Source: an uncultured Lachnospiraceae bacterium (lineage in GTDB: Bacteria > Bacillota > Clostridia > Lachnospirales > Lachnospiraceae). From it: a stretch of DNA of 64,000 bases. The DNA lies in contig CANRMA010000016.1 of the NCBI GenBank assembly GCA_947631625.1, positions 1 to 64,000 of the forward strand, read 5' to 3'. A program made the position numbers and the translations under genes. The notes beneath the pieces were generated by a model that worked only from the letters and a program-made list of their open reading frames with translations, did no database searches and had not been told where the DNA came from. Shown here one piece after another: positions 6,975-51,461 of the stretch. Position 1 is the first letter of the stretch; every line of letters begins with the position of its first letter.

Positions 6975-8504
6975 ATGAGTATTACATCATTTTATTTTTT
7001 GTGTTTTTTTGCAGGGATATTGATCTTATATTATATTATCCCCAAGAAACTTCAATGGCCGCTTTTGCTTCTCTGTAGTGTGGCTTATTATATGATGACG
7101 GACAATTATCTGCTTATTTTATATCCGATCGCGTCGGTGGCAGTGTGTTATATGGGGATCAGGGTTATTGAAGCGGCGAAAGACGAACGGAGAAAAAAAG
7201 CTGCGTTAATTACGGTGATCGTCGTAAATATAGGAATTCTGGTTATATTAAAGTATGTAAACTTCGGAATTTATACTATTAACGGTATTGCAAAGTTTTT
7301 GGGACATAAGGGCAGTCTGCTGCACAGACTGGGATTTTTGGCGCCGCTTGGGGTTTCTTTTTATACATTTTCGCTGCTTGGCTATGTAATAGACGTTTAT
7401 TATGGAATCGCAGGGGTGCAGAGAAATCCTGCAAAGCTTGCGCTTTACGGGATGTATTTTCCGGTGGTGATCTCCGGGCCTATACTTAAGTACAGAGAAA
7501 GCGGAGAGCAGTTCTTTGAGCCGCATTATTTTGACTATAATAAGGTGACCGGGGGTATGCAGCGTATGCTTTGGGGGCTTTTCAAAAAGCTTGTGCTCGC
7601 AGAGCGCCTGGGCGTGGTAGTTGATACGGTTTATGGAAAGTATCGTGATTATCCGGGGGCTTATATATGGATTGCGACGTTTTTCTATGCATTCCAACTA
7701 TATACGGATTTCTCAGGCTGTATGGATATAGTTCTGGGTATGTCAGAGAGTTTCGGCCTTGAATTGCCGGAGAATTTTAAGACTCCGTTTTTCTCGGAGA
7801 GTATTTCGGAATATTGGAGAAGGTGGCATATCACTCTGGGAGTGTGGATGAAGGAGTATGTGTTTTATCCTCTTCTTCGTTCGAAATTCTTTATGGGACT
7901 TAATAATTCGTGGAAGAAGAAGTTCGGTAAAAAAAGAGGCAAACAGTTTGCGACATTTGCGGCGATGTTTATTCTCTGGTTTTCCGTAGGCATATGGCAT
8001 GGCGGCGCATGGAAATATGTAATAGGTTCAGGTCTTTTGCATTGGTTCTATATTGTGATGGAAGAATTGCTTAAAGAACCGTGCGCAAAAGTTATGAGTA
8101 AGCTTAAGATCAACTCAGCCGGAAGACCGATAAAATTCATACGCATAATAAGAACGTTTGTTCTGGTATGCATAGGGGATCTGTTTTTCCGGTCAAAAAA
8201 TGTGCCTAAAGCATTGGAAATGCTGAAGTTGTCCGTATCTGTATGGAATCCTGAAATACTCTGGAACGGAGAGCTTATGAATCTTGGGCTTGGCGCGGTT
8301 GAACTTCTCATTGTTTTGGTCGCACTGTTTATTTTGTTGGCGGTGAGCCTGCTGCAGCAAAAGGGTTCGGTCCGTGATATGATAGCGTCGCGTAAACTTC
8401 CCGTAAGATGGCTGATATGGTATGCGCTTTTATTCGGGGTGATATTACTTGGATGTTACGGACCGCAGTACAGCGCTTCTGAGTTCATTTATCAGGGCTT
8501 TTAA
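6975..8504 (+). CDS. MBOAT family O-acyltransferase
   Basis: 509 residues with about ten or more membrane segments, of the DltB/AlgI (MBOAT) family. The start at 6975 has GGGAG upstream; an in-frame earlier start at 6888 adds a polar extension without an RBS. Diagnostic segments are FQLYTDFSGCMDIVLGMS, YWRRWHITLGVWMKEYVFYP and SVGIWHGGAWKYV, the last carrying the invariant histidine. These enzymes pass an acyl group from a carrier to a molecule outside the membrane. An SGNH protein, an FkbH-like protein and an acyl carrier protein follow in the same direction, suggesting the acyl donor is ACP-bound. No DltA-type adenylation gene is present. Confidence 0.9.
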   Translation: MSITSFYFLCFFAGILILYYIIPKKLQWPLLLLCSVAYYMMTDNYLLILYPIASVAVCYMGIRVIEAAKDERRKKAALITVIVVNIGILVILKYVNFGIYTINGIAKFLGHKGSLLHRLGFLAPLGVSFYTFSLLGYVIDVYYGIAGVQRNPAKLALYGMYFPVVISGPILKYRESGEQFFEPHYFDYNKVTGGMQRMLWGLFKKLVLAERLGVVVDTVYGKYRDYPGAYIWIATFFYAFQLYTDFSGCMDIVLGMSESFGLELPENFKTPFFSESISEYWRRWHITLGVWMKEYVFYPLLRSKFFMGLNNSWKKKFGKKRGKQFATFAAMFILWFSVGIWHGGAWKYVIGSGLLHWFYIVMEELLKEPCAKVMSKLKINSAGRPIKFIRIIRTFVLVCIGDLFFRSKNVPKALEMLKLSVSVWNPEILWNGELMNLGLGAVELLIVLVALFILLAVSLLQQKGSVRDMIASRKLPVRWLIWYALLFGVILLGCYGPQYSASEFIYQGF

Positions 8505-8564
8505 ACGGACTTAATGTGTGGTACAATTATTGAGGTACTAAAAATTAAAGATTTGGAGACGTGT

Positions 8565-9512
8565 ATGGACAAGATAGCTGTTCTTATTCCCTGTTATAAT
8601 GAAGAAAAGACGATAGCCAAGGTAGTCAGAGAGGCCAAAGAGGCTCTGCCGGAGGCTGTTGTATATGTATATGATAATAATTCCGTTGATAATACCGTAG
8701 AACGCGCCAAAGAAGCAGGCGCAGTGATACGCTATGAGTATATGCAGGGAAAAGGAAATGTCATCCGTCGTATGTTCCGGGAAATAGAGGCGGAATGCTA
8801 TATCATTGTTGACGGCGACGACACTTATCCTTTGGAGTGCGCAAAGGAGATGGCTGATAAGGTACTGTATCACAATGCCGATATGGTAGTGGGCGACAGA
8901 CTGTCTTCTACTTATTTTACCGAGAATAAACGTCCTTTTCACAATTTTGGCAACAGTATAGTGCGAAGCAGTATTAACAGTCTTTTCGACTGTGACATCA
9001 AGGACATAATGACGGGTTACAGGGCTTTCAGTTATGGTTTCGTGAAAACTTTTCCGGTGCTTTCCACGGGCTTTGAGATAGAAACGGAGATGACTATTCA
9101 TGCCGTGTACAATAATCTGCAGATAGAAAATGTAGTGGTTGATTACAGGGATCGTCCCGAGGGAAGCGAATCCAAGTTAAATACCTTTTCCGACGGTTAT
9201 AAAGTGCTGCGCACGATTTTTAAACTGTACAGGGATTATAGACCGTTTGGATTTTTCGGATTGTTTTCCGCCGTTTTGACGGTTGTGGCAGTTGCGCTGT
9301 TTATTCCGATACTGATCTCTTATATAGAGACGGGACTGGTCCTTCGTTTTCCAACGTTATTTGTATGCGGATTTATCGGACTTGCTGCCGTACAGTCTTT
9401 TTTTGCGGGATTGATACTTTCCAATATGGCGTTGAAAAACAGACGGGATTTCGAATATCGTTATGCCCTGTGCATGAGGAATATAAAAAAGGATATTAGT
9501 TCTGACCGCTGA
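8565..9512 (+). CDS. polyprenyl-phosphate-type GT2 glycosyltransferase
   Basis: 315 residues, DPM1/GtrB-like. The ATG at 8565 is preferred (GGAG just upstream) over 8514. The nucleotide-sugar site begins at IAVLIPCYNEEKTIAKVV, the DxD-like motif is VDGDDTYP, and MTGYRAFSYG with TGFEIETEM follows. Two hydrophobic helices near residues 225-290 end the protein. This layout is usual for enzymes loading a sugar onto undecaprenyl phosphate for use outside the membrane. It follows the MBOAT gene by 60 bp, so they are probably cotranscribed. Confidence 0.85.
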   Translation: MDKIAVLIPCYNEEKTIAKVVREAKEALPEAVVYVYDNNSVDNTVERAKEAGAVIRYEYMQGKGNVIRRMFREIEAECYIIVDGDDTYPLECAKEMADKVLYHNADMVVGDRLSSTYFTENKRPFHNFGNSIVRSSINSLFDCDIKDIMTGYRAFSYGFVKTFPVLSTGFEIETEMTIHAVYNNLQIENVVVDYRDRPEGSESKLNTFSDGYKVLRTIFKLYRDYRPFGFFGLFSAVLTVVAVALFIPILISYIETGLVLRFPTLFVCGFIGLAAVQSFFAGLILSNMALKNRRDFEYRYALCMRNIKKDISSDR

Positions 9513-9619
9513 TCATATCCGGCCATAACCGTGTCTGTGGATTCCTTTGGCTGTCGATCCATTTTTCCACTATGTTACATATTTGAGGCTGTATTCTTAT
9601 ATAATATTATAGGGAGCAG

Positions 9620-9658
9620 TTTAGCGGGATACATCAGGGCGGTCCGTGTATCGCTAAA
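9620..9658 (+). terminator. stem-loop after the first GT2 gene
   Basis: TTTAGCG-GGATACA (9620-9633) pairs with TGTATCGCTAAA (9647-9658) apart from one bulge, and is followed by the weakly T-rich tgtatttctt. A possible end of the MBOAT-GT2 transcript, within the 322-bp gap before the next gene. Confidence 0.4.
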
Positions 9659-9734
9659 TGTATTTCTTAAGAAAAACGAAAGCTTTGATTAAAAATTGAT
9701 GGATTTTCGTACATATGTGAAAAAATATGATATG

Positions 9735-9751
9735 CTGTCAATATATGACAG
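9735..9751 (+). promoter_or_regulatory. palindrome CTGTCA-N5-TGACAG upstream of SGNH gene
   Basis: A perfect 6-bp dyad spaced by 5 bases, about 85 bp before the start codon at 9835, in otherwise AT-rich DNA. It may be an operator. No convincing -35/-10 pair was found in this gap. Confidence 0.3.
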
Positions 9752-9834
9752 TGAAGATCATAGTGTAAAGTCTGTGGATCGATAACTGTTTGTAATATGC
9801 AGATATACCGGAATGGAAAGGGGTATGATGGTTT

Positions 9835-11073
9835 ATGGAAGGTAATGACAGAAGAAATATAAACAATGGCAGGAATGGAAGAAGCAGAAATAGAAGAAAT
9901 AATGCAGGCGGAAACGGCTCCAAAACTATTCTGTATGCGGTCATGGCAGTGTTCTGCATACTGGCGCTTGCGGAGATAATCTACGGTAATTTTAAATCCC
10001 GGGCGGGATATGAAGCCGAAAATATTGCCGGAAGCGATGAACTGCTTTCGGTTCAGGAAACGGAAAATGGAGAAGGAGTTTCCGACGACTCGCAGCTGCC
10101 TGACATTCCGCTGCAGGGCATGTTTGAAGAAAGTCTGGAAGATATAAATGAGGCGATAGATGAAAGCGAAAATGAAGCGGAAGCCAAAAATGAAGCAGTA
10201 AAAGAAAACGCGGATGGGAGCGGTAAGAGCGCGCCGGGCGGAGAAACTGCGCAGAATGAGCAGTCCGGAGACAAAAATCAGTCTGAGAATTCCGGCGATA
10301 ATGCAAAGCCTGAAAAAACTGCCGATATGCAGATAGTGTTTATGGGGGACAGCATTCTTGACGGCGTGCGCGAATACGACGGCGTGGCTTATCTTATTTC
10401 CCAGGCCTGCAATGCAGATGTATACAATATGGCGATAGGCGGCACGACGGCCGCTCTTATGACAGGGGAATCATATGCGTATAATGATTGGACCTCATGT
10501 TCGCTGCTTGGCGTAGTGCATGCGATACTGGGTAATATAGATCCGAAGATACTGGAGCCTTACCGCGCGGGCGAACTGTTAAAAGAGTGCGACTTTTCCA
10601 AAACAGACTATTTTGTCATTGAATATGGAGTAAACGATTTTCTTGCCAAGATTCCTGACAGCCAGTATACAAACGATGGCGAACTGCGGAATATCGATAA
10701 GGAACATACGTATGTCGGCGCGCTTGAAACTGCGATAGGTTTACTGCACGACGCCTTCCCGTCGGCCAAGATATTGCTTATAGCGCCGCATTACTGCCAG
10801 TTTTTCAGCGGCGATGCGTATATAGGAGACTCTTATTCGCTTGATTATGGTTATGGTCCCATGATCGACTACTCAGAGTTATGCGGTTATGTATATAATC
10901 ACAATAAAGATAAAAATCTTTTATACTTTAACACTATAATGGACAGCGGCATAGACGCCTATTCTGCCGACGACTGTCTTGAGGACGGAATTCATCTGAG
11001 CGCTAAGGGACGCAAGATATATGCGGAAAAAGCGGCAAGCATTATAAATAATGATTTCAGAAAGAATGAATGA
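9835..11073 (+). CDS. membrane-anchored SGNH/GDSL hydrolase
   Basis: 412 residues. A basic Asn/Arg-rich cytoplasmic head (1-30) is followed by one membrane helix (about 31-50), a long acidic linker (55-160) and an SGNH domain outside the cell. The domain has block I IVFMGDSILDG with the nucleophile Ser, block II IGGTTAAL, block III YGVNDF and block V DGIHLS with the catalytic Asp/His. Such enzymes remove or transfer acyl groups on glycans, and in Dlt-like systems an SGNH protein (DltD) works beside the MBOAT. It precedes the FkbH and ACP genes. The substrate is unknown. Confidence 0.85.
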   Translation: MEGNDRRNINNGRNGRSRNRRNNAGGNGSKTILYAVMAVFCILALAEIIYGNFKSRAGYEAENIAGSDELLSVQETENGEGVSDDSQLPDIPLQGMFEESLEDINEAIDESENEAEAKNEAVKENADGSGKSAPGGETAQNEQSGDKNQSENSGDNAKPEKTADMQIVFMGDSILDGVREYDGVAYLISQACNADVYNMAIGGTTAALMTGESYAYNDWTSCSLLGVVHAILGNIDPKILEPYRAGELLKECDFSKTDYFVIEYGVNDFLAKIPDSQYTNDGELRNIDKEHTYVGALETAIGLLHDAFPSAKILLIAPHYCQFFSGDAYIGDSYSLDYGYGPMIDYSELCGYVYNHNKDKNLLYFNTIMDSGIDAYSADDCLEDGIHLSAKGRKIYAEKAASIINNDFRKNE

Positions 11074-11146
11074 CCGGAACTTTGGGGAAGGGCATAGCGT
11101 TCCGTATGGCAGATGAGCAGTATAAAGTTACGGATGGAGGAGTGTT

Positions 11147-12982
11147 ATGAAGGAGCTTGAATATCCTTTTGACAGTGAATACATTTTAAAGAAGTCTAAG
11201 AAGATCAAAAAACAGCTTCTTAGTGAACTCAAAAATCCGGTAAAGAAGAAGATAGCGGTACTGGGCGGAAGCACGACTCATGATATAGTGAGAATTCTGG
11301 ATGTGTTTTTGTTAAATCAGGGTATAGAAGCTCAATTTTATGAGTCGGAATATGCCCGGTACTGGCAGGATGTAATGTTTGATTCCGGGGAACTTATTGA
11401 GTTCGCGCCGGATCTTATCTATATCCATACTTCGAACCGCAATATTATCGCTTATCCGGCAGTGTCCGATTCAAAGGAGAGCATAAACGAGCTGCTTGAA
11501 GCAGAATATCAGCGTTTTGAGGTGATGTGGAAAAAGGCGGCGGATACTTATAAGGTCCCTGTTATACAGAACAACTTTGAGTATCCTTTTTACAGGCTTC
11601 TGGGTAATCAGGATGCGGTATATGAACAGGGGCGCATAAGCTTTATAAATGCGCTTAATGCGAAGTTTTATGATTACGCAAGGGAACATGATGATTTCTA
11701 TATAAATGATATAAATTATATGGCGGCGGCTTATGGACTGGATAAGTGGTCAGATCCTTTTTACTGGCATATGTATAAATATCCGATGTGTATGCAGGCA
11801 ATACCGGAATTCGCTTTTAATCTGTCCAATATAATAAAGGCCGTTTTCGGAAAGAATAAAAAGTCGTTGGCGCTTGATCTGGATAATACTTTGTGGGGCG
11901 GCATAGTAGGCGACGACGGAGTGGAAAATCTGGAGATCGGTCAGGAAACCTCTATGGGACAAGTCTATTCAGAGTTCCAGAGTTATGTAAAGACACAGAA
12001 AGACATAGGCGTCATATTGAATGTAAATTCCAAAAATGAATATGAGAACGCCGTTGCGGGATTAAATCATCCTGACGGGATACTTAAGCCGGATGATTTT
12101 CTGCTCATAAAGGCAAATTGGGAGCCCAAGAGCAAAAATATGGCGGAAATAGCCGAAGAGATGAATATATTGCCCGACAGTCTGGTTTTCGTTGACGATA
12201 ATCCTGCCGAGAGGGAGATAATGCGAACACAAATGACAGGAGTGTCAGTTCCTGAAATGGGCAGCCCGGAGCAGTATATAAGAATACTGGATCACTCAGG
12301 TTTTTTTGAAGTGACAACTCTGTCAGAAGATGATAAAAAGCGCAATGAGATGTACAAGGCTAATATCTTGCGCGCAGGTATGCAGCGGGAATTCGGAGAT
12401 TATAAAGAATATCTTAAATCTCTGGAAATGAAGGCGCAGATAAAACCTTTCACGCCTGTTTATATGGCGAGGATAGCGCAGCTTACCAATAAAAGCAATC
12501 AGTTTAATCTGACGACCAGACGCTATACGCAGAGCGATATAGAACGGTTTGCAGGGGATAGCGGATATATTACGCTGTACGGCAAACTGGAAGACAAGTT
12601 CGGTGACAATGGCGTCGTTTCTGTAGTCATAGGCAGGATCGACGAGCAGACGGGAATTAAGGATAAATTGTGTCACATCGAGCTGTGGCTGATGAGCTGT
12701 CGTGTTTTGAAAAGAGACATGGAGTTTGCCATGATGGACTGTCTTGTCCGTTCATGCGCGGAACGCGGGGTAAAAACTATTATAGGTTACTATTATCCGA
12801 CCTCGAAGAACGGAATGGTAAAAGAGTTTTATGCGGAACAGGGGTTTGAAAAGGTATCCGTGGACGGGGAAGGCAACAGTATATGGCGCTTTGAAATACC
12901 GTATGATGACACTAAGGAGCGCGGCGAACAGGGATATCTGAAATATGAGAATAAGAATACGGTAATAGCAGTCGAAGAGTAA
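11147..12982 (+). CDS. FkbH-like HAD-IIIC protein with GNAT domain
   Basis: 611 residues. The N-terminal region (1-235) is FkbH-type (IAVLGGSTTHDIVRILD). The HAD-IIIC domain has DLDNTLWGGIVGDDG near 245 and VFVDDNPAERE near 345. A C-terminal acetyltransferase-like domain (430-600) contains the family segment TNKSNQFNLTTRRY. Characterised FkbH proteins take 1,3-bisphosphoglycerate, dephosphorylate it and load the glyceryl unit on an acyl carrier protein for polyketides. Here no polyketide synthase exists, but an ACP gene lies 92 bp downstream and an MBOAT upstream. Glyceryl or related decoration of a glycan is inferred. The family assignment is firm; the acyl group is not proven. Confidence 0.88.
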   Translation: MKELEYPFDSEYILKKSKKIKKQLLSELKNPVKKKIAVLGGSTTHDIVRILDVFLLNQGIEAQFYESEYARYWQDVMFDSGELIEFAPDLIYIHTSNRNIIAYPAVSDSKESINELLEAEYQRFEVMWKKAADTYKVPVIQNNFEYPFYRLLGNQDAVYEQGRISFINALNAKFYDYAREHDDFYINDINYMAAAYGLDKWSDPFYWHMYKYPMCMQAIPEFAFNLSNIIKAVFGKNKKSLALDLDNTLWGGIVGDDGVENLEIGQETSMGQVYSEFQSYVKTQKDIGVILNVNSKNEYENAVAGLNHPDGILKPDDFLLIKANWEPKSKNMAEIAEEMNILPDSLVFVDDNPAEREIMRTQMTGVSVPEMGSPEQYIRILDHSGFFEVTTLSEDDKKRNEMYKANILRAGMQREFGDYKEYLKSLEMKAQIKPFTPVYMARIAQLTNKSNQFNLTTRRYTQSDIERFAGDSGYITLYGKLEDKFGDNGVVSVVIGRIDEQTGIKDKLCHIELWLMSCRVLKRDMEFAMMDCLVRSCAERGVKTIIGYYYPTSKNGMVKEFYAEQGFEKVSVDGEGNSIWRFEIPYDDTKERGEQGYLKYENKNTVIAVEE

Positions 12983-13074
12983 GTTGGCAAAAATAATAAA
13001 ACCCTTGCGTATGGAAGAGAAAACTTATATTATTATATATATGGTCATATTATAAATGTCGAAAGGAAAAGAAG

Positions 13075-13317
13075 ATGAGCCGGGAAGAAGTTTTTAGCAG
13101 ACTTAATGAAGTTTTCAGGGATGTATTTGATGATGAGAGCATTACCGTGACGGATGCGACGACTGCGGATGATATAGAGGACTGGGACTCTTTGGAGCAT
13201 ATCAATCTGCTTGCGGCAGTAGAGCAGGAATTTGGGATGAAGTTTAATATGGGACAGGTTGTGTCGATGAAAAACGTAGGAGAAATGGCTGATATAATCA
13301 TGTCCAAGTTAGGTTAG
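13075..13317 (+). CDS. acyl carrier protein
   Basis: 80 residues, acidic and helical, with the phosphopantetheine attachment Ser in DWDSLEHINL (about residue 40). GAAAGG precedes the ATG. Its position right after the FkbH gene indicates that it carries the acyl unit made by that protein. It is not the fatty-acid ACP by context, since no fab genes are nearby, and plays a DltC-like role in this module. Confidence 0.9.
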   Translation: MSREEVFSRLNEVFRDVFDDESITVTDATTADDIEDWDSLEHINLLAAVEQEFGMKFNMGQVVSMKNVGEMADIIMSKLG

Positions 13318-13326: not shown

Positions 13327-14301
13327 ATGAAGCCGATTTTATATATTGTGATTCCATGCTATAACGAAGAAAAGGCGCTTCCCGTTACGGCGCCTATGTT
13401 CCTGGAGAAGCTTGATATGCTTATACGGGATGGCCGGATAAGTGAAAAGAGCCGGATAATGTTTGTTGACGACGGCTCAAAGGACGATACATGGAATATC
13501 ATAAGCGGGCTTTCCGGGCAGGATGAACATTATATAGGAATAAGGCAGAGCCGCAACAGAGGACATCAGAATGCCGTTCTTGCCGGTCTGATGGAGGCTA
13601 AGGAACTGTGTGATATAACCATATCTATTGACTGCGACGGTCAAGACGATATAAATGCCATGGACAAAATGGTGGATGAGTATCTGGGAGGCTGCGAGAT
13701 CGTATACGGCGTCAGGAATAATCGTGATACGGATACTTTTTTCAAAAGATTCAGCGCCGAGTCTTATTACAGGTTCTTAAGGGCGTTGGGAGTGGAGGCC
13801 GTGTTTAATCATGCCGATTATCGTCTGGTTTCGAGCCGTGTTCTGAAAGAATTCGCCGATTTTAAAGAGGTAAATATATTTTTGAGGGGACTTTTCCCCT
13901 TGGTAGGCTTCAAAAGCACCAGCGTATATTACGAGCGTCATGAGCGGTTGGCGGGAGAGAGCCATTATCCGCTTGTAAAAATGCTTGCTCTGGCTTTTGA
14001 GGGGATAACAAGCCTAAGCGTCAAGCCCATACATCTGATAACGGGACTGGGCTGTTTTATTGCGCTTTTAAGTTTTGTCGGGGTTATATGGTCCGTGTCG
14101 GTCTCACTGCTTGGAAAGGCAGTAGCAGGGTGGTCGAGCATGACTTGCATAATATGTTTCATCGGGGGAATACAGCTTATATGTCTGGGGATCCTGGGAG
14201 AATATATCGGTAAGATATATTTGGAAGTGAAACACCGCCCAAGATATATAATAAGCGAGCGCACTTATGAAGATGAGGACAAACGCCGCGATACGGTTTA
14301 A
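13327..14301 (+). CDS. GtrB-like polyprenyl-phosphate glycosyltransferase
   Basis: 324 residues, GT2 family. The catalytic domain runs from YIVIPCYNEEKALPVTAP through IMFVDDGSKDDTW and SIDCDGQDD. GESHYPLVKMLALAFEGI leads into two C-terminal membrane helices (about 240-305), the layout of bactoprenol glucosyltransferases such as GtrB/YkoT. It starts 9 bp after the ACP stop, in the same operon. Together with the GtrA-like protein at 16432 it could supply a flipped lipid-linked sugar to a GT-C enzyme outside the membrane. Confidence 0.88.
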   Translation: MKPILYIVIPCYNEEKALPVTAPMFLEKLDMLIRDGRISEKSRIMFVDDGSKDDTWNIISGLSGQDEHYIGIRQSRNRGHQNAVLAGLMEAKELCDITISIDCDGQDDINAMDKMVDEYLGGCEIVYGVRNNRDTDTFFKRFSAESYYRFLRALGVEAVFNHADYRLVSSRVLKEFADFKEVNIFLRGLFPLVGFKSTSVYYERHERLAGESHYPLVKMLALAFEGITSLSVKPIHLITGLGCFIALLSFVGVIWSVSVSLLGKAVAGWSSMTCIICFIGGIQLICLGILGEYIGKIYLEVKHRPRYIISERTYEDEDKRRDTV

Positions 14302-14312: not shown

Positions 14313-14720
14313 TCAGACAACTGATCGGTCTTTAATAAGTTCGATCATTCCAACTGACACATGTGTCATAAATACAACTTCGCGTCCTGACAGCGCAGGG
14401 GCGGGAGTAGGAGTATCAATGGCCATGAAACCTTCTGACACAAGTGTCATATAATCTTTTCCAAAATCTTCCGTTTCATAGCATATATGATAGGGGCTGT
14501 TCTTATATCTCTTCATAAGGCCGGAAACCACTGAATCTTCAGCGGCGGGAGAAACAAGCTCGATACGGTATCCGTCTTTTTCCATAAAACATATATTGAC
14601 TTTACGTATGTCGTCGTAAATAACAGGCTGCGTCGCGCTATAGCCCAGTTTCTCAAATGCTGCTGCGGCTGCTTCCATTTTTTTTACCAGATAGCCGATG
14701 TGATGTACTTTCAATGCCAT
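14313..14720 (-). CDS. VOC superfamily (glyoxalase-like) protein
   Basis: 135 residues forming two beta-alpha-beta-beta-beta halves. Likely metal ligands are in VHHIGYLV (residue 5-6), YRIELVSP, YHICYE and MIELI, the His/Glu pattern of methylmalonyl-CoA epimerase and glyoxalase relatives. It is transcribed against its neighbours and converges with the GT2 gene 12 bp away. Its coding sequence contains two TGACA-N4-TGTCA palindromes. The reaction is unknown; a link to a short acyl metabolite used by the FkbH module is possible but unproven. Confidence 0.75.
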   Translation of the reverse strand: MALKVHHIGYLVKKMEAAAAAFEKLGYSATQPVIYDDIRKVNICFMEKDGYRIELVSPAAEDSVVSGLMKRYKNSPYHICYETEDFGKDYMTLVSEGFMAIDTPTPAPALSGREVVFMTHVSVGMIELIKDRSVV

Positions 14721-14918: not shown

Positions 14919-16448
14919 TTGGAGAAAAAGTTAAAAGTCTTAAATTATATCAGTTATTTTATTTTTATAATACTTATGCTGCCGGTAATTTATCTGACAT
15001 TCGTTAATCGTGCGACGGGTGATGATTACGGTTATGCCATATACACAAGGGCGGCATGGCTTGGGACACATTCGATCCCTGAGCTTTTAAAGGCCTCGTG
15101 GCAGACCATAAAGCAGTCTTATTATTCTTTTCAGGGTACATGGTTCAGCCTTTTTTTATTTACGCTGCAGCCGGAAGTCTTTAGTGACAAGGCCTATGTG
15201 ACAGTGGCGTTTATCATGCTCTTTGTATGGATCGGCAGCACTTTTTATCTGTTCAGGACTATATTGACGGAGAATATGGCGGCGGATAAATGGAGCTATA
15301 TGCTGATCACGGTCTGGTTTCTTATAATAAGCATAGAATTCATTCCGTCTACGCGTTCCGCGATTTTTTGGTACAACGGCGGAGTACATTATATGGTACC
15401 GTTTGCGATGTGTCAGTTGGTTGCGGCGTGGCTGTTTAAATATGTAAAAGAGTACAAAGAAACTACGTTTGCGGGTATTCTGATATGCATGACGCTGCTT
15501 GGGGGTTCCAACTACCAGGCGTCGCTGTTTACGCTTATCATAGCGTTTTACATGATCGCGGCGGTATGGTTCCTCCATAAAGATAAACGTGTGTTTACGC
15601 TGCTTGTACCGATCGTGACACAGCTTACCGGGCTTATCGTAAGCATGAAATCACCCGGCAACAGAGTCCGCGCAGGAGCGGATTTTGGGTTTTCGGCAGG
15701 TAGGGCGTTTGAGACCATAGGCTTATCATTTGTCGGCGGCATTAAGGATATCGGTCTGTATATGAAAGAAAAACCGTTGGCGATGGCAGGGTTGCTGCTA
15801 TTATTTGTTATTTTTTTAACAATGTTTTGCGCTGAAAGGAGAAAAGGCGGCGACGGCTGTCGGGAATATAAGGGTTATGTGTTCAGGCATCCCGTTTTGC
15901 TTTCCGTTATGCTGTATTGCTTATACAGCGCCATGCAGGCGCCGGCGATATATGCGGGGGTGGACGTTTCAGGCGGAGTTCCCAACACCAATTATCAGGT
16001 GTTTCTTTTGACCGCGTCGGGAATACTTATGATAATTGCGCAGAAACTGTCTGTGAGATTAAAGCTGCTGTGGAAAGAGAATACGGATAAAAATATAATG
16101 AAGTTCATATGGCTGCCTGCGCTGCTTATTTGTTTAATAACACTCGTTATCGGAAGGAGCAGCATAAAAACTTCAACGTCTTTTGTTTCGGCGGAGTATA
16201 TAGCGAGCGGACAGGCTGCCGATTATAAAGAACAGATGGATCTGCAGACCGGGCTTTTGGAAGATGAGAGTACGCAGGATGTTGTGGTTCCTTTTATCAA
16301 TGATGTTCAGGGACCGCTTATGCATATGCCTGTCACCGATGATCCCGATGCTTTTACAAATTATGCGACTGGGGAGTTTTACGGTAAGAACAGCGTGACG
16401 GCTATGGACAGGACGGAATGGAACAGGCTGTATGGGGAGCAGCAGTAA
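14919..16448 (+). CDS. multi-span membrane protein, GT-C-like (DUF6056-like)
   Basis: 509 residues with about eleven membrane segments. The first outer loop carries NRATGDDYGYA, an acidic motif typical of GT-C enzymes that use lipid-linked sugars, followed by a conserved FWYNGGVHYMVPF. The last 80 residues lie outside the membrane. TTG at 14919 is taken as the start because GGGGGATGAG lies just before it; the ATG at 14912 is out of frame. It overlaps the next gene by 17 bp. I recall the family as DUF6056 but cannot confirm this here. Probably a side-chain glycosyltransferase. Confidence 0.7.
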   Translation: MEKKLKVLNYISYFIFIILMLPVIYLTFVNRATGDDYGYAIYTRAAWLGTHSIPELLKASWQTIKQSYYSFQGTWFSLFLFTLQPEVFSDKAYVTVAFIMLFVWIGSTFYLFRTILTENMAADKWSYMLITVWFLIISIEFIPSTRSAIFWYNGGVHYMVPFAMCQLVAAWLFKYVKEYKETTFAGILICMTLLGGSNYQASLFTLIIAFYMIAAVWFLHKDKRVFTLLVPIVTQLTGLIVSMKSPGNRVRAGADFGFSAGRAFETIGLSFVGGIKDIGLYMKEKPLAMAGLLLLFVIFLTMFCAERRKGGDGCREYKGYVFRHPVLLSVMLYCLYSAMQAPAIYAGVDVSGGVPNTNYQVFLLTASGILMIIAQKLSVRLKLLWKENTDKNIMKFIWLPALLICLITLVIGRSSIKTSTSFVSAEYIASGQAADYKEQMDLQTGLLEDESTQDVVVPFINDVQGPLMHMPVTDDPDAFTNYATGEFYGKNSVTAMDRTEWNRLYGEQQ

Positions 16449-16914
16449 TAAGAAAGGCAGGCGTTGTGCTTTGACGGGTAAGATAAAAGAGCTTTATGGA
16501 AAAAACAGGGAATTTATAATGGAAGTGATCCATTTTGGAATAGTGGGTGTTATTAATACGCTTATGGGCTGGGGCATAATGGCCTTTTTATATAATTTCA
16601 TGCACATGAATTATTGGCTCTCCAGCGGGATCTCATATTTTATAGGAAGCGTTTTTTCTTATAACGCCAATGCAAAGCTTACTTTTAAGGTCGAGGAGAG
16701 GGATAAATGGCTTGTCTGGAGGTTTGCGGCCAATATAGCGGTCTGTTATTTTATAGCATTCGGCGTGGCCAAGCCGCTTGTGAGGGCGCTTCTTAGTTCG
16801 GCGCCTGTTGCCGTTGTGGAAAATGTGGCGATGGTCGTCGGTATGGGACTGTTTGTCGTAATGAATTTCTTTGGGCAGAAGCTGTTTGTATTCCGTAAGA
16901 AAAAATCTTCATGA
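16432..16914 (+). CDS. GtrA-like flippase
   Basis: 160 residues with four membrane helices. FGIVGVINTLMGWGIMAFLY, the polar SYNANAKLTF and MNFFGQKLFVFR match the GtrA/DPMS-beta family, thought to flip polyprenyl-phosphate sugars. The ATG at 16432 overlaps the previous gene; a TTG at 16471 behind AAAGGCAGG is an alternative start giving 147 residues. It pairs functionally with the GtrB-like enzymes at 8565 or 13327. Confidence 0.85.
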   Translation: MGSSSNKKGRRCALTGKIKELYGKNREFIMEVIHFGIVGVINTLMGWGIMAFLYNFMHMNYWLSSGISYFIGSVFSYNANAKLTFKVEERDKWLVWRFAANIAVCYFIAFGVAKPLVRALLSSAPVAVVENVAMVVGMGLFVVMNFFGQKLFVFRKKKSS

Positions 16915-16936
16915 CAGTCTTTTGGGGAGTATATAA

Positions 16937-18688
16937 ATGAAAGAATTAACGCACAAAAAGTGGTTTCTGTGGCTGACAAAATACTGGTTCATATTTCCGG
17001 TGGCAGGTTTTCTGCTGTTTGAAGGCGGTATCTTTATAGGCTGCGGTGAAAAAAGCCATATTGCAGTACATGATAACATGGACCTGTTCCTGGCGCAGTT
17101 TAAGATGCTCAAAAACACGGGCTCATTTTTTAAGCATGGGGTGGATGTTCCGTTTTTGGGCGGGGTAAGCAGAGATGATCTGCCCTCGGAACTGTCGCTT
17201 TACAGTGTGCTTTATATGCTGCTTCCGACATATTATGCTTATGTGGCGGGACTTTTGCTGAAAGTGGTCGTGGCGGTATTTTCATTCAGGCTGCTGATAA
17301 AGGAACTTTTTCCGGAGAAGTATAATGCATACCGCCCGATAGTTTTTATGACCGGTTTTGCATATGGGATATTGAACCTTTTTCCGGCCTTTGGCATTGC
17401 CTTTGCTTCGATGCCTCTGGCGTTGTATCTGCTTATCAGGATATATAAAAAACCAAGTGTTATTTTATATGCGCTGCTGTTTTGCTATCCGCTTGTGTCA
17501 TATTTTTCCTATATGGGAATTTTTATCCTTGGGTATATATTAATAGCAGCAGTTATTTTATCTATAAAAGATAAAAAGCCCGCATGGCAGCTGTTTGGGG
17601 CGTTTGTAGTATTGGCGCTTGGCTATGCGTCGTGTGAATACCGCCTGTTTTATCAGATGCTTTTTGGAAAAGAAGAAACTATCCGCGCTACGATGGTAAA
17701 TCCCGATCTGTCTATGGCGGAAGCGCTTAAAGAGATGGTTACGGTATGGAAAGAAGGCATTTTTCATGCCGACGGCGTACATACTAAGTTCATTCTGCCT
17801 TTGTGCATTATATATTTTTTTATAAATAACATTCGTTATATAATTAAAAAGCAGGCGCGACTCATATTTCATGACATTTTCAATTTAATAATGGCTGTTA
17901 TTATATTTAACAGCATAGTTTACGGGCTGTATGATCTGGAGCCTGTGAGAAGTTTATTCGAAACCATAATTCCGCAGCTTAAGGGATTGCAGTTTAACCG
18001 CACGGTTTTCTTTAACCCTTTTCTGTGGTATGCCGCGCTTTTTGTGATACTGGCTGAACTTTACGATATGGGGATATGGCAGCAGTGGGCGGCCAATGTT
18101 ATCGTGTGTGTTGCGGCGCTTGTTATAATACTTACGCCTACAAGATATAATGATTTATATAACACATGTTATTCGATTGCTTATAAATATTATCACGGTA
18201 CGGAAGTGGACGAGCTTGACTATGGGCAGTTCTATGCTGTAGATTTATTTACGGAGATAAAAAATGACATCGGTTATAACGGGGAGTGGTCGGCCGCTTA
18301 CGGCATGCACCCCGCGGTGCTTGAGTATAATGACATAGCTACCCTGGACGGTTATCTGGGTTTTTATTCACAGCGGTATAAAGAAGATTTCCGGAAGATC
18401 ATAGCGCCTGCGCTTGACCGCGTGGAAGCCACCAGAATATATTATGACGACTGGGGAGCGAGGGCTTATCTGTATTCAGGCACCGATCTCAGTATAGTGA
18501 ACGCCACCAAAACCGTTTATGCAACGGATTATGATATTTATATGGACGCCGAAAGCTTTAAACGGCTTGGAGGCAGGTACATTTTTGCAAGGTGGGAGAT
18601 CACCAATGCAGACGAAGTGGGCCTTGAGCTTGTCGGAGTATATGGAGACAGCGGCAGCGGATATGTGATATACTTGTATGAAGCATAG
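16937..18688 (+). CDS. multi-span membrane protein, GT-C-like (DUF6044-like)
   Basis: 583 residues with about twelve membrane segments and a 160-residue soluble C-terminal domain outside the membrane. The first outer loop has AVHDNMDLFLAQF, the HDN-x-D signature I associate with the DUF6044/YkoS family of presumed glycosyltransferases. The operon order GtrA then GT-C fits O-antigen-like or teichoic-acid glucosylation. The gene ends in a tandem repeat array that begins with the last base of the stop codon. Confidence 0.7.
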   Translation: MKELTHKKWFLWLTKYWFIFPVAGFLLFEGGIFIGCGEKSHIAVHDNMDLFLAQFKMLKNTGSFFKHGVDVPFLGGVSRDDLPSELSLYSVLYMLLPTYYAYVAGLLLKVVVAVFSFRLLIKELFPEKYNAYRPIVFMTGFAYGILNLFPAFGIAFASMPLALYLLIRIYKKPSVILYALLFCYPLVSYFSYMGIFILGYILIAAVILSIKDKKPAWQLFGAFVVLALGYASCEYRLFYQMLFGKEETIRATMVNPDLSMAEALKEMVTVWKEGIFHADGVHTKFILPLCIIYFFINNIRYIIKKQARLIFHDIFNLIMAVIIFNSIVYGLYDLEPVRSLFETIIPQLKGLQFNRTVFFNPFLWYAALFVILAELYDMGIWQQWAANVIVCVAALVIILTPTRYNDLYNTCYSIAYKYYHGTEVDELDYGQFYAVDLFTEIKNDIGYNGEWSAAYGMHPAVLEYNDIATLDGYLGFYSQRYKEDFRKIIAPALDRVEATRIYYDDWGARAYLYSGTDLSIVNATKTVYATDYDIYMDAESFKRLGGRYIFARWEITNADEVGLELVGVYGDSGSGYVIYLYEA

Positions 18689-33956: not shown

Positions 33957-35033
33957 ATGAGAACTTATTTGGTCACGGGCGGGGCAGGTTTTATAGGCTC
34001 CAACTACATTCATTATATGTTTAAAAAATATGATAATGAGATCCGCATCATAAATGTGGATGCGCTCACCTATGCCGGAAACCTTGAAAATCTCAAAGAA
34101 GTTGAGAAGCGGAGCAATTATGCTTTTGTAAAGGCCGATATCTGTGATAAAGAGGCTATAAGCCGTATATTTGCGGAAAACGATATAGACAGGGTAGTGC
34201 ATTTTGCGGCGGAAAGCCATGTGGACAGGAGTATTAAAAATCCGGAGGTTTTCGTTCGAACAAACGTTCTGGGAACCGCGGTTATGTTAAACTGCGCCAA
34301 AGCGGCATGGGAACTGCCGGACGGAAGTTATAAGGCGGATAAGAAATTCCTGCATGTTTCGACTGATGAAGTATACGGTTCTCTGACGGAGGACGGCGGA
34401 TATTTTTATGAGACTACGCCGTATGCGCCTCACAGTCCGTATTCCGCGAGCAAAGCCTCATCCGATATGCTTGTAAAGTCCTATATGGATACATATAAGT
34501 TTCCGGCCAATATTACGAACTGTTCCAACAACTACGGCCCTTATCAGTTTCCGGAGAAGCTCATTCCTCTTATCATAAACAACGCATTGCAGGGCAAAAA
34601 GCTTCCGGTATACGGAGACGGGAAAAACGTGCGCGACTGGCTTTATGTTGAAGACCATGCCAAAGCGATAGATATGGTTCAGGAAAAAGGAAGGCTGTTT
34701 GAGACCTACAATGTCGGCGGACATAACGAAAAGCAGAATATTGAGATCATACATATAATCCTCGATACCTTAAAGGAAATGTTAAGCGACGATGATCCGA
34801 GAAAAGCGCATATAAGCGAAGACCTGATTACTTATGTTGAAGACCGCAAGGGTCACGACAGGCGTTATGCCATAGCTCCGGACAAGATCAAAGATGAGAT
34901 AGGCTGGGAACCCGAAACGATGTTTAAAGACGGAATCAGGCTTACCATAAAGTGGTTCTTTGAGCATGAAGAGTGGATGAAGAACGTAACAAGCGGCGAT
35001 TATCAGAAATACTATAACGAAATGTACGAGTGA
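33957..35033 (+). CDS. rmlB: dTDP-glucose 4,6-dehydratase
   Basis: 358 residues, short-chain dehydrogenase superfamily. The NAD site is [19 protein letters not shown] at the N-terminus. The active-site Thr-Asp-Glu is in [10 protein letters not shown], with Tyr-x3-Lys in [30 protein letters not shown] and [10 protein letters not shown] are family hallmarks. It converts dTDP-glucose to dTDP-4-keto-6-deoxyglucose. AGGAG precedes the ATG, and rmlA follows 10 bp downstream. Confidence 0.95.
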
Positions 35034-35043
35034 GGATTTATTT

Positions 35044-35913
35044 ATGAAAGGTATCATATTGGCGGGCGGTTCGGGGACAAGGCTGTATCCGCTTACTAAA
35101 GCTGTGTCAAAACAGATTATGCCCGTATACGATAAACCGATGATATATTATCCGTTATCCATACTTATGTTGGCCGGAATAAGGGATATCATGATTATCT
35201 CCACGCCGAGGGATCTTCCGGCGTTTAAGGAGCTGTTCGGAAGCGGGGAACAGCTTGGTCTGCGCTTTGAATACGCGGCGCAGGAGACTCCGAGAGGACT
35301 TGCCGATGCTTTTATAATCGGAGCGGATTTTATCGGGGACGACAATGTTGCGTTGGTGCTCGGAGACAATATTTTTTACGGACAGAGTTTTTCAAGTGTG
35401 CTTAAGAGAGTGGCTTCAATGGAAAAGGGCGCGACAATATTCGGCTATTATGTGCGCGATCCGAGAGAATACGGTGTAGTTGAGTTTGACGAAAACGGAA
35501 TGGCCATATCGATCGAGGAGAAACCCGAACATCCCAAGAGCAATTATGCGGTTCCCGGACTTTATTTTTATGATAACGACGTGGTGGAGATAGCGGCAAA
35601 CGTAAAGCCGTCTGCCCGCGGCGAAATAGAGATTACAAGTATCAATAATGAATATCTCAGGCGTGGAAGTTTGAGGGTGGAAACGCTTGGACGAGGTTTT
35701 GCTTGGCTTGATACGGGAAGCCATGATTCTCTGTTGGATGCGGCCGATTTTGTGGCGGCGTTCCAGAAAAGGCAGGGACTGTATATTTCCTGCATAGAGG
35801 AGATAGCATACAAGAGAGGTTTTATAGATAAAGAGCAGCTTCTTAAGCTCGCGGAGCCGTTGCTTAAGACAAACTATGGAAAATATCTGGTAGAGGTTGC
35901 GAATGGACTCTAA
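35044..35913 (+). CDS. rmlA: glucose-1-phosphate thymidylyltransferase
   Basis: 289 residues. The nucleotide-binding start is [20 protein letters not shown], followed by [24 protein letters not shown] and [21 protein letters not shown], all standard for RmlA. It makes dTDP-glucose for RmlB. Its 3' end overlaps the second GH25 gene by 11 bp, tying that lysozyme to nucleotide-sugar synthesis. Confidence 0.95.
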
Positions 35914-37279
35914 AAAATTACGACGGACCATATTAGGAGTCATAATTGTATTTATTATAATAACAGGTGTTATCATAGCTGCCAACCGGGATATGATCCG
36001 GGAAAAGTTTGGATCGGGAACCGGGAAAAAAAGCAGTAATGCCGCGGTTTCATCAGATCCGGAAGGCTCGCGGGCGAATGGGCAGACTGACTCCGGACAG
36101 CTTGGCAATGATCTGCAGGGTTTTATGCAGGATGACGGATTTTTTGATCCTGAAGTTAAATACAAGAGTATTGAAACATATGCAGGCAGGGCGGTAACGC
36201 CGATCATGAGCTCCGTGGCCAAAGACATACGTATAATGATAGTGGACAGCAGGGGCAGACTGGTGACTGGCGCGCCTTTCAGCATAAAGATACAGGAGCT
36301 TGGCGAGTATACGGACGATAATGAGGACGGCATAATTTATATCGACGGAGTCCGCGCAGGCGAGTACAGCGTGTCCATGAATGAGATGGACGGATTTAAG
36401 GTACCCAATACCGTGACTACCATTAAAGTTAAGCAGGATATAGAGTATCGCGTTCTGGATGATGTTGAGTATCTTATGCTTACAGAGGACGATGTGGATG
36501 CGTCCAAGGAGGACTTGGAGGTAAAAGAGGCCGAAAGCGAAGCTGACGGTACGGAGAATACGTCTTTTGATATGGCTGACGGCAATGCAAGAAAAGGTAT
36601 TGACGTTTCCAAATGGAATAAGGAAATAGACTGGGAAGCGGTAAAAGACGACGGAGTGGAGTTTGCCATTATCCGCTGCGGTTACAGAGGTTCTTCCGGC
36701 GGCGCTCTTATAATAGATCCGCGTTTTAAGGAAAATATAGAAGGCGCGATAGAAGCGGGCATTCCGGTCGGAGTCTACTTCTTTACGCAGGCGGTGAGCG
36801 AACGTGAGGCTATAGAAGAGGCCAGTATGGTTATCAGCCTGATACGTGAATATGACGTGGACTATCCCGTCTTTCTGGACAGCGAAAGCGCGGGCGGCAG
36901 GGGTCGCGCGGACGATCTGTCCAAGGAGGAGAGAACGAAATACCATAAAGCTTTTCTTAACACGATAGCGTCTGCCGGCTATGAAACGGGCGTTTATGCC
37001 TCAACCAACTGGTTTGGCAGACGGATAAATGTCGATGAACTTTCCGGTTATAATATATGGCTTGCCCAGTATGCCGAAGTTCCTACATATGAAGGTTATT
37101 ACAATATGTGGCAGTACACTTCCAAAGGAACAATAAACGGAATTTCGACAAATGTAGACCTGGATCTGTCTTACATGAATATAGATACGTCAATAGATCA
37201 TTCCGCAAAATCCGGCGGATATACCGGAGTCGTCGAGGGCGATACCGGAAACGTGCCGGTGGATAAGAAGGATTATTAG
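35903..37279 (+). CDS. membrane-anchored GH25 lysozyme, short paralogue
   Basis: 458 residues from the ATG at 35903 (GAGG before it, inside rmlA). A single helix (about 10-28), a prealbumin-like stalk ([20 protein letters not shown], about 105-195) homologous to that of the protein at 30655, an acidic linker, then the GH25 domain (about 231-426) with [12 protein letters not shown] and FLDSESAGG retaining Asp and Glu. A short polar tail follows. It lacks the BIG2 and acidic-head parts. Translational coupling to rmlA suggests that wall cutting is coordinated with polymer attachment. Confidence 0.9.
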
Positions 37280-37301
37280 TAACTTATAACGGAGGAACAA
37301 C

Positions 37302-37865
37302 ATGGGAAAGATAACTGTGGAAACATGTGAAATAGAAGGTCTGAAGGTCATCACTCCGACAGTTTTTAAAGATGAGCGGGGATATTTTATGGAAACCTAC
37401 CAGTATGAGGATTTTAAAGCGGCAGGTATCGAACAGGTGTTTGTACAGGACAACCAGTCGGCGTCCGTAAAAGGAGTGCTGCGCGGTCTGCATTTCCAGA
37501 TAAATTATCCTCAGGATAAGCTCGTAAGGGTACTGCAGGGCGAGGTGTTCGACGTTGCGGTGGATATAAGGCCGGGGTCTTCTACTTATGGCAAGTGGTT
37601 CGGAGTCAGGCTGTCCGCCGAGAATAAAAAACAGTTTTTTATACCCAAAAATTTTGCACACGGTTTTCTGGTGCTTTCTGATTATGCTGAATTTGCTTAT
37701 AAATGTACGGATTTTTATCATCCTAACGACGAGGGCGGCATCATATGGAACGATCCCGATATAGGAATCGAGTGGCCGCTTTTATCCGGCATGGAACTCA
37801 TACAGTCCGAGAAAGATACAAAATGGGGCGGCATTAAGGAATTCAGTGAGAAGTACCGGAAATAG
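37302..37865 (+). CDS. rmlC: dTDP-4-dehydrorhamnose 3,5-epimerase
   Basis: 187 residues of the cupin-like RmlC family. VFKDERGYFMETY, FVQDNQSASVKGVLRGLHFQ (with the catalytic His), VRVLQGEVFDVAVDIRPGS and FAHGFLVLSDYAEFAYKCT are all characteristic. It follows the GH25 gene by 22 bp with GGAGG upstream. The reductase rmlD that would complete dTDP-rhamnose is not in the window. Confidence 0.94.
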   Translation: MGKITVETCEIEGLKVITPTVFKDERGYFMETYQYEDFKAAGIEQVFVQDNQSASVKGVLRGLHFQINYPQDKLVRVLQGEVFDVAVDIRPGSSTYGKWFGVRLSAENKKQFFIPKNFAHGFLVLSDYAEFAYKCTDFYHPNDEGGIIWNDPDIGIEWPLLSGMELIQSEKDTKWGGIKEFSEKYRK

Positions 37866-37886
37866 AAGCGGAGATCTCTAAGAAAA

Positions 37887-38939: not shown

Positions 38940-38965
38940 AGACTTAGAGGGGCGCGGCGTTTATT

Positions 38966-40249: not shown

Positions 40250-40266
40250 ATTGTTGATGCGCCTGC

Positions 40267-40458
40267 TGCGAAACTATGATATATGTTATTGAGATTGCAC
40301 AGATTTAACAAAACCCTTGCAGGCCGCTTTCGCCGCGTTGAGCGCAGTAGCGGCACTAAGCTCGGAAATACCTCGCTAACTGCCGACGCGCTCAGAGCGC
40401 CTGCAATGGTGTTTGTTAAATCTGTACAATCAATATACGTTGAGATAGTGTTTCGCAA
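40267..40458. mobile_element. MITE-like inverted-repeat element, copy 3
   Basis: 192 bp bounded by TGCGAAAC and GTTTCGCAA. It shares AATTACCTATC immediately outside its right end with the copy at 59082, so the true element is slightly longer. It lies between the ABC ATPase and methyltransferase genes, 18 bp after the ATPase stop. Confidence 0.8.
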
Positions 40459-40493
40459 TTACCTATCTTTATTTATTTTGCGAGGTTGAATAG

Positions 40494-42686: not shown

Positions 42687-42689
42687 GCC

Positions 42690-45077: not shown

Positions 45078-45138
45078 TATGCATTGAATGCATAATACCG
45101 GGTTTTGAAAGAGACCCGGCTGTGATTGGAGAGGCAGT

Positions 45139-47184: not shown

Positions 47185-47231
47185 TGTGATATTATATATG
47201 AAAAGGAAATTTTTATATGGAGGTAAGGAGT

Positions 47232-48953: not shown

Positions 48954-48978
48954 TAATTGTAATAATCAGGAAAGAATG

Positions 48979-49005: not shown

Positions 49006-49006
49006 T

Positions 49007-51437: not shown

Positions 51438-51461
51438 TAATTAGCCGAAAGAGGCATAGCC

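Follow-up and report, generated by a model that had tools for sequence, protein, structure and literature searches.

What does an MBOAT acyltransferase transfer when its gene lies with those for an SGNH protein, an FkbH-family protein and a one-domain ACP, and to what acceptor? We addressed this question in a 64,000-nucleotide stretch of DNA from an uncultured Lachnospiraceae bacterium, referred to here in its entirety as the window. A preliminary description had proposed a Dlt system in which FkbH replaces DltA. We consider it probable that the genes form a module for carrier-protein-dependent envelope acylation fed from glycolysis, in which an acyl group would pass along an FkbH-ACP-(VOC)-MBOAT-SGNH relay. 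The features of the window are as follows.

6975..8504, + strand: MBOAT acyltransferase (PF03062, 57.5 bits, cut-off 27), ending in FIYQGF
8514..9512, + strand: GT2, polyprenyl-phosphate-sugar synthase-like (PF00535; AglJ-like but below cut-off, TIGR04182 199 bits against 325)
9835..11073, + strand: SGNH protein (PF13472, 43.7 bits, cut-off 32.9)
11147..12982, + strand: FkbH-family protein (TIGR01686, 270.3 bits, cut-off 146.65; FkbH_N)
13075..13317, + strand: one-domain ACP (PF00550, 23.3 bits, cut-off 20.8)
13327..14301, + strand: GT2 polyprenyl-phosphate sugar transferase (PF00535; PgfS/ArnC-like but below cut-off, NF047588 207.3 bits against 500)
14313..14720, - strand: VOC protein, glyoxalase I / methylmalonyl-CoA epimerase-like (PF13669, 57.9 bits)
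14919-16448, + strand: protein without a match in the Pfam scan
16432-16914, + strand: GtrA flippase-like protein (Pfam scan)
16937-18688, + strand: DUF6044 protein (Pfam scan)
24731-26191: second MBOAT of the window, outside the carrier clade described below
33957..54326, + strand: context, wall or surface polysaccharide locus as judged from its RmlB-, RmlA- and RmlC-like and other genes

The MBOAT, SGNH, FkbH and ACP genes, together with the two GT2 genes, lie on the + strand throughout, and all four proteins scored above their Pfam or TIGR01686 cut-offs, confirming the single orientation described earlier. The absence of an adenylation enzyme and of a polyketide synthase was also borne out, as the Pfam scan of the window ORFs gave zero matches to AMP-binding, ketosynthase or condensation domains (NCBIfam models alone were applied to the ORFs at 19904 and 20995, and 66-3977 and overlapping antisense ORFs lie outside the scan). 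A PKS or NRPS remnant was rejected for the window on the same grounds; a related FkbH-VOC protein is itself an NRPS. An Acyl_transf_3 gene is also present in the window.

We then surveyed 120 FkbH loci with about 34-76% FkbH identity; the related-locus search feeding this set kept the best 80 of at least 594 loci, and the neighbour-family HMMs, applied to all 120 loci, derive from 40 of them. Within 6 kb, FkbH had an ACP in 98 loci, an MBOAT in 82, and both in 72. In 53/120 loci both were accompanied, within 8 kb, by a partner that was SGNH-like or DHHW, the partners counted as SGNH-like being a mixture of families. Only 1/42 background MBOATs had an FkbH within 5 kb, the 40 background loci having been hand-picked from a longer list. 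The source genome contains one FkbH and six MBOATs in 2.67 Mb, and since their pairing recurs in relatives, it exceeds chance.

Of the set FkbH, ACP, MBOAT and SGNH named in the preliminary description, ACP and MBOAT recurred with FkbH, but the window kind of SGNH protein was found in only 14/120 loci. The GT2 genes had been assigned a role as providers of acceptor sugars. Both are present, but the first ORF opens at 8514 (8565 being an internal ATG), and its kind also occurs in 14/120 loci, so neither this GT2 nor the window kind of SGNH protein is general. Among the 72 loci with ACP and MBOAT, the partner within 8 kb was of the window kind in 7, DHHW in 10, and of two further kinds, c9 and c10, in 35 and 8, respectively. 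In the c9 and c10 kinds, GxS is nearly invariant and the His of DxxH fully so. Weak matches at E<=0.01 were seen to DltD in 8/52 and to GDSL_2 in 10/52 partner proteins (52 members, the alignment omitting 5 of 57), and most of the 52 had no match to a Pfam SGNH-type family at this threshold. Judged by these profiles, the partner in most of the other MBOAT loci is a different protein, weakly SGNH/DltD-like.

The SGNH protein of the window has a hydrophobic N-terminal stretch, as read from its sequence, and an intact triad (GDS 171-173, GVND 265-268 and DGIH 384-387; Ser173/Asn267/Asp384/His387). One row (L089) of its 15-row alignment is without the GDS block. Fold comparison gave an SGNH fold, with lipases and esterases as the nearest folds and PatB at rank 27. 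Pfam returned GDSL families and not PF04914 (DltD), and no NCBIfam model was matched.

With the ATG at 6975 taken as the start, the conserved His of the MBOAT is residue 342; translation may instead begin at a TTG at 6888, giving a longer protein. DltB structures 6BUG and 8JEM matched the protein with E about 2e-20, and its C-terminal FIYQGF fits the FXYXXF motif, for which a shuttle with an acyl-Tyr relay is described in DltX and PatA (PMC12148441). In an alignment of 111 rows, the His was present in 110 and the Tyr in 103, with a gap in the other 8. The motif was dropped as a sign of carrier use, as it or a close variant occurs in 40/42 background MBOATs. The score against the DltB equivalog TIGR04091 (cut-off 375 bits) was 144.5 for the module MBOAT, 166.6 for the second window MBOAT, and 493.8 for a true DltB of the family. 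Because non-carrier MBOATs reach similar scores, this was also abandoned as a sign of carrier dependence.

The first tree included 111 of 176 labelled MBOATs, and placed the module MBOAT in a 56-row clade (SH-aLRT 100) of which 40 are FkbH-linked, 9 adjoin an ACP without FkbH and 7 are others, 3 of these 7 belonging to FkbH loci in which FkbH lies 5.9-6.2 kb away. We refer to this as the carrier clade, though two rows inside it (L171 and L217) have no carrier gene nearby, and 16/56 FkbH-near MBOATs of the tree fall outside. A second tree recovered the same clade with support 100/100; since its 57 rows were hand-chosen from the first, it is a test of the branch rather than of the association. 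Six of the nine clade MBOATs with ACP but without FkbH have an adenylation-type gene in their vicinity, one of them in the source genome itself, where the order is SGNH-like-MBOAT-ACP-adenylation (L191). The second window MBOAT lies outside the carrier clade in both trees, and was therefore excluded from the module.

Glyceryl-ACP or a derivative might instead be used in the cytoplasm to N- or O-acylate a nucleotide sugar, with MBOAT and SGNH acting as an ordinary acetyl-CoA O-acetyltransferase. An MBOAT is absent within 6 kb in 38/120 FkbH loci, some of which stop at contig ends, and two of the MBOAT-less loci inspected contain a PglD-like acyltransferase (L059) and a GNAT (L066), respectively, indicating that FkbH-ACP can also serve other acceptors. 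The window also holds the non-carrier-clade MBOAT and the Acyl_transf_3 gene. In Campylobacter jejuni, the FkbH-domain gene cj1302 likewise lies inside a surface (flagellar) glycan locus, and a strain in which it is a pseudogene is described as being without the dimethylglyceric acid sugars (dimethylglyceric-acid pseudaminic acid in the flagellar glycan); the sections of that report used here name no MBOAT alongside and give no test of cj1302 itself (PMC7099621). Against this, the module MBOAT belongs to a clade mostly adjoining carrier proteins, the distance between ACP and MBOAT is at most 60 nt for 22/83 FkbH-near MBOATs, and the scanned window ORFs gave no match to a hexapeptide or GNAT gene. 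We regard acylation of a nucleotide sugar as unlikely, and favour export of the acyl group through the MBOAT.

Analysis of the neighbourhood revealed a partner overlooked in the preliminary description, the VOC gene at 14313-14720 on the - strand. Solved structures 2QH0 and 3HDP, whose labels are lactoylglutathione lyase / glyoxalase I, matched the protein (E about 2e-30 to 4e-30). Residues H7, E54, H78 and E127 are invariant in 12 rows, and we take them to be the four metal ligands whose role is known from glyoxalase I and the epimerase. The likeness to these enzymes extends to structure matches of both kinds and to the four ligand positions. In contrast to methylmalonyl-CoA epimerase, the VOC protein falls below the epimerase cut-off (TIGR03081, 50.6 bits against 114.95) and is tied to FkbH-ACP. 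FkbH has a VOC gene within 6 kb in 28/120 loci, and a class-wide search returned 30 VOC loci. All 8 of these with E<=5e-9, from 7 genomes including the source genome, were beside or fused to FkbH. The fusion occurs in the related NRPS protein. None of the 22 weaker loci (E>5e-9) had FkbH alongside, the flank being shortened in L250, L260, L264 and L265.

In other FkbH loci a MaoC dehydratase, often with an SDR, is found in place of VOC. VOC and MaoC never occurred together in the 120 loci (Fisher p 4.6e-4), but after correction for the FkbH tree, from which 2 of 120 rows were omitted by length, this exclusion was not significant (median p 0.125), and we dropped it as proof of alternative tailoring. 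The association of MaoC with SDR held after the same correction (median p 0.0039). With VOC or MaoC present alongside FkbH in 55/120 loci, the transferred acyl group is probably something other than plain glycerate in some cases, contrary to the earlier assumption.

Glyoxalase I forms alpha-hydroxyacyl thioesters, and the structures nearest to the VOC protein carry that label. The VOC protein could on this basis be a glyoxalase that converts an alpha-oxoaldehyde on the carrier thiol to lactoyl- or glyceryl-S-ACP, either in place of FkbH or in addition to it. We find this quite improbable, as VOC accompanies FkbH, itself already an acyl source, and is fused behind it in an NRPS; epimerisation would be the simpler complement to FkbH.

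FkbH as the acyl source is consistent with its architecture, an SGNH-like N domain followed by a HAD-IIIC domain (DLDNT 244-248) and a GNAT-like C domain. Its structure model (pLDDT 90) matched HAD and GNAT folds, and D244, D246, T248 and Cys518 are invariant in an alignment of 29 rows. The ACP starts 93 nt after FkbH and carries a phosphopantetheine site at Ser39 (DWDSLE), with 2LML as its nearest solved structure. An FkbH homologue is described as using D-1,3-bisphosphoglycerate to load discrete ACPs with glyceryl (PMC3625739), and from this precedent we propose that the window FkbH may load glyceryl. That FkbH is a mere sugar-synthesis phosphatase and another acyl group is loaded by an enzyme elsewhere is the least probable alternative: its HAD domain alone does match phosphatases and adenylation enzymes exist at other loci of the genome, but a same-strand ACP lies less than 100 nt from FkbH in 93/122 loci, the GNAT-like domain is modelled intact with its invariant Cys518, and the adenylation genes at loci C2 and C4 come with ACPs of their own.

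Further glycan genes follow the module. The gene order at 14919..18688 is also kept in a relative locus (L039); these genes are possibly involved in extracytoplasmic glycan building and probably represent the acceptor pathway. The region 33957..54326 encodes RmlB-, RmlA- and RmlC-like proteins, an ABC-2 permease, a Wzt-type ATPase, GT2s, a phosphoglucomutase, a sugar transferase and a LytR-CpsA-Psr ligase, a content that identifies it as a wall or surface polysaccharide locus.

The module resembles Dlt in having a small activated acyl group on a stand-alone carrier, an MBOAT with an SGNH partner, an FXYXXF tyrosine shuttle and, as the presumed acceptor, a gram-positive envelope polymer. The proposal that FkbH replaces DltA survives in that FkbH occupies the place of the adenylation enzyme, as seen in the 72/120 loci with ACP and MBOAT and in the MBOAT clade. 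The locus is not, however, a Dlt system that has lost DltA: curated models do not identify the MBOAT and ACP as DltB and DltC, the SGNH protein is without an NCBIfam match and the MBOAT carries the shuttle motif fused to its own chain. The DltC model was absent from the NCBIfam matches of the window ACP; at an adenylation-type locus (L218) it was the best ACP match, below cut-off. No DltA exceeded its curated cut-off in the genome (best match 332.8 bits against 559.85; assembly 81% complete), and FkbH is proposed as the carrier loader instead. Curated cut-offs for DltA and DltB led us to reject a plain Dlt operon.

PatA/PatB and AlgI-type pairs share with the module an MBOAT with a fused C-terminal FXYXXF and an SGNH protein, but are described as using an acyl-CoA donor without a carrier; the sections of this 2025 MBOAT-SGNH paper used here recognise one carrier-protein pathway, Dlt, and take the others as acyl-CoA users (PMC12148441). 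The module MBOAT is in a clade separate from MBOATs without a carrier, in trees from which PatA and AlgI sequences were absent. Tetronate (FkbH/Tmn16/AbyA2) and aeruginosin-type NRPS pathways share the FkbH family, a discrete or fused ACP and 1,3-bisphosphoglycerate, as described in PMC3625739 and PMC13122637. They differ in that the window has no assembly line and the product is proposed to reach the MBOAT. For suomilide, the MBOAT of the cluster is proposed to acylate a hexose as a later tailoring step (PMC13122637).

Observed directly were the genes present, how the set recurs, the clade of the MBOAT, conservation of catalytic residues and the linkage of VOC and MaoC/SDR to FkbH. FkbH would, from its family, move the glyceryl group of D-1,3-bisphosphoglycerate onto the ACP. 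With less certainty, the VOC protein would then act on the glyceryl thioester at C2, with epimerisation of D- to L-glyceryl-ACP as the most likely reaction; in sister loci, MaoC and SDR would dehydrate and reduce glyceryl-ACP to lactyl-ACP. The conserved residues and the published relay suggest that the MBOAT loads the acyl group from cytoplasmic ACP onto the outside tyrosine of its own FIYQGF, from which the SGNH protein may hand it to a sugar of the wall or surface polysaccharide of the same locus. The acyl group, the VOC reaction and the acceptor are what we infer.

More tentatively, and with somewhat less than even confidence, we suggest a modular family of acylation systems in which glyceryl-ACP is inverted at C2 by VOC or converted to lactyl-ACP by MaoC and SDR before export by the MBOAT, the decoration being swapped via one or two genes. 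VOC would here be a dedicated enzyme with a new thioester epimerase activity on a carrier, split transketolase subunits would sometimes be added, and the MBOAT would be carrier-specific with a built-in tyrosine shuttle. Gut Clostridia could by this means exchange the decoration on their wall glycans.

The titles and abstract starts of the open-licence PMC literature searched gave no description of an FkbH-MBOAT-ACP module, which is probably a new Dlt-like variant of envelope acylation with the first enzyme replaced. If true, this would be a second carrier-protein kind of MBOAT-SGNH acylation, supplied from a glycolytic acyl phosphate without an adenylation step. The module supplies a substrate hypothesis for the FkbH-linked VOC subfamily, and suggests where glyceryl or lactyl esters of surface glycans in gut Lachnospiraceae and other Clostridia might come from.

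Using Pfam and NCBIfam, we read from the plus strand at 6975-14301, in this order, genes for an MBOAT, a GT2, an SGNH protein, FkbH, an ACP and a further GT2. This confirmed the families and the single orientation described preliminarily. The reported lack of an adenylation enzyme and a polyketide synthase also held, as none of the scanned ORFs of the window matched an AMP-binding, condensation or ketosynthase domain. The window's own genome (2.67 Mb assembly, 81% complete) contained one FkbH, six MBOATs and no DltA over the cut-off. The genes beyond the module are as follows.

14313-14720, minus strand: VOC gene (Glyoxalase_4, 57.9 bits), directly downstream of the GT2-ended module
Downstream of the VOC gene: a protein without Pfam match, then GtrA, then DUF6044 (Pfam)
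Farther downstream: RmlB-, RmlA- and RmlC-like genes, an ABC-2/Wzt-type exporter, GT2s and a LytR-CpsA-Psr ligase

The module thus sits within a locus for wall or surface polysaccharide. A Tn916-type integrase (5339-6646) lies directly upstream of the MBOAT, a position taken in a same-genus locus (L039) by another MBOAT on the opposite strand. A second MBOAT, belonging to a non-carrier clade, is found with a 394-residue partner without Pfam match at 24731-27630.

The module is best read as a new form of carrier-protein-dependent MBOAT-SGNH envelope acylation, for which we infer the acyl group, the VOC reaction and the acceptor sugar. Its mode of working would be Dlt-like, in line with the earlier proposal of a Dlt system without DltA, but the module is not Dlt, because no DltA, DltB or DltC was recognised by the curated models that define them. 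FkbH-linked glyceric acid on a surface glycan has a precedent in C. jejuni, through strain associations given in passages of PMC7099621: dimethylglyceric acid sugars are missing both from a strain in which the fkbH-domain gene cj1302 is a pseudogene and from another strain without cj1301.

FkbH was present in 63 of 299 genomes searched in the family and was patchy in wider sampling (11/299 genomes of the phylum, own included). We examined 120 loci, namely 40 read from the family search and the best 80 of 594 from titled genome records, several of which reach contig ends; named isolates included Eisenbergiella tayi DSM 26961, Butyrivibrio sp. XPD2002 and Lachnospiraceae bacterium 28-4 (L087, L110 and L085). 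Within 6 kb of FkbH in this sample lay an ACP in 98 loci, an MBOAT in 82, a VOC in 28, a MaoC dehydratase in 27 and an SDR in 19. ACP and MBOAT occurred together in 72/120, so that the proposed FkbH, ACP and MBOAT set did recur, and 53 loci had in addition an SGNH-like or DHHW-kind partner within 8 kb. As a control we took 42 MBOATs from 40 background loci in this family; one had FkbH on its own strand at no more than 5 kb, and these loci contained no VOC, MaoC or SDR of these kinds.

The SGNH part of the set was upheld only in this broader sense, as partner kinds vary between loci and the window's own was seen in 14/120. Two commoner kinds, c9 and c10, show GxS and DxxH motifs, with weak matches to DltD (8/52) and GDSL_2 (10/52). 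Upstream of FkbH-ACP we repeatedly found a second kind of MBOAT, whose partner is DHHW/AlgX-like by Pfam in L133 (L127, L133, L135, L138, L148 and others). Its tree-placed members (L127, L135, L138) all fell outside the carrier clade of MBOATs, and it may be an independent recruitment.

The VOC gene very probably belongs to the system. It was matched by 30 loci in 26 of the 291 genomes of the class searched; all eight loci with E ≤5e-9 (seven genomes, own included) had the VOC beside or fused to FkbH, and FkbH was absent from the flanks (up to 1.5 kb, shortened in four cases) of all 22 weaker loci. One fusion is a single NRPS protein of 2220 residues:

L277:5109-11771: NRPS protein starting FkbH-VOC, followed by condensation, adenylation and carrier domains; a second carrier stretch is also present in the protein

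No paper joining FkbH, glyoxalase and polyketide was found in the open-licence literature. The four metal-ligand positions of the VOC were invariant in 12 rows. Epimerase-type and glyoxalase I-type VOC enzymes shift a proton next to a thioester or form alpha-hydroxy thioesters, and since they act at such positions, C2 of glyceryl-S-ACP would be a natural target. Epimerisation of C2 would be the simplest outcome; dehydration to pyruvyl is possible. The product of the L277 NRPS could reveal the C2 stereochemistry.

In 27 of the 120 loci a MaoC protein takes the place of the VOC, accompanied by an SDR in 15; all 27 show a hydratase-type motif (loose pattern). MaoC would dehydrate glyceryl-ACP to pyruvyl-ACP, with subsequent reduction to lactyl-ACP, the route reportedly proposed for the bryostatin loading module. 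VOC and MaoC never occurred together (0/120). On the FastTree FkbH tree each required 17-18 gain or loss events, and starred branches made 11 and 13 of these necessary. After tree correction the MaoC-SDR link held (median p 0.0039), and the VOC-MaoC exclusion was not significant (median p 0.125). Split transketolase halves stand between FkbH and a MaoC-ACP(-SDR)-MBOAT string in L090, L099, L120 and L121, which may make a further acyl group, and adjoin FkbH without MaoC in L131 and L136.

The MBOAT-less loci L059 and L066 carry PglD-like and GNAT acyltransferases, respectively, so FkbH-ACP probably acts as a donor unit that serves different kinds of receiver. A second recurrent genomic site places FkbH directly upstream of phosphofructokinase and dnaX (L044 by Pfam; L051, L088, L091, L092 and L115 by clustering), with an ACP in four of the six loci and no MBOAT among the genes listed there.

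In a tree of 111 MBOATs, the window MBOAT fell in a 56-row clade (SH-aLRT 100), a split that a mixture-model tree, built from 57 of the rows, recovered at 100/100. The clade comprised 40 rows near FkbH, nine beside an ACP without FkbH, and seven others. Outside it, no row carried the label for an ACP neighbour in the absence of FkbH: 16 were near FkbH and 35 were of other kinds. Four DltBs (three over the model cut-off, one below) also lay outside, on a long branch of their own, and lacked the C-terminal motif. An adenylation-type gene was near six of the nine ACP-type members, which include two sister modules:

L191:6253-11709 (own genome, G000:C4): adenylation type; SGNH-like, MBOAT, ACP and an unusual AMP ligase fused to a nitroreductase domain
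L218:1998-7537: amino-acyl type; DltA-like enzyme, LysA-like enzyme, DltC-like ACP, MBOAT with fused shuttle motif and a further 333-aa protein

In the L218 module, where the LysA-like enzyme is a putative decarboxylase, the amino acid may undergo decarboxylation or racemisation. Among the seven others, L079, L081 and L083 belong to FkbH loci, at a distance of 5.9-6.2 kb; in L212 an adenylation-type gene stands 961 nt from the MBOAT, L176 has a gene resembling the L218 decarboxylase (judged by eye), and no carrier gene was seen near L171 and L217. The ACP-type, adenylation-linked members thus share a clade with the FkbH-near MBOATs, and the loading enzyme therefore appears to have been exchanged within an otherwise similar machine.
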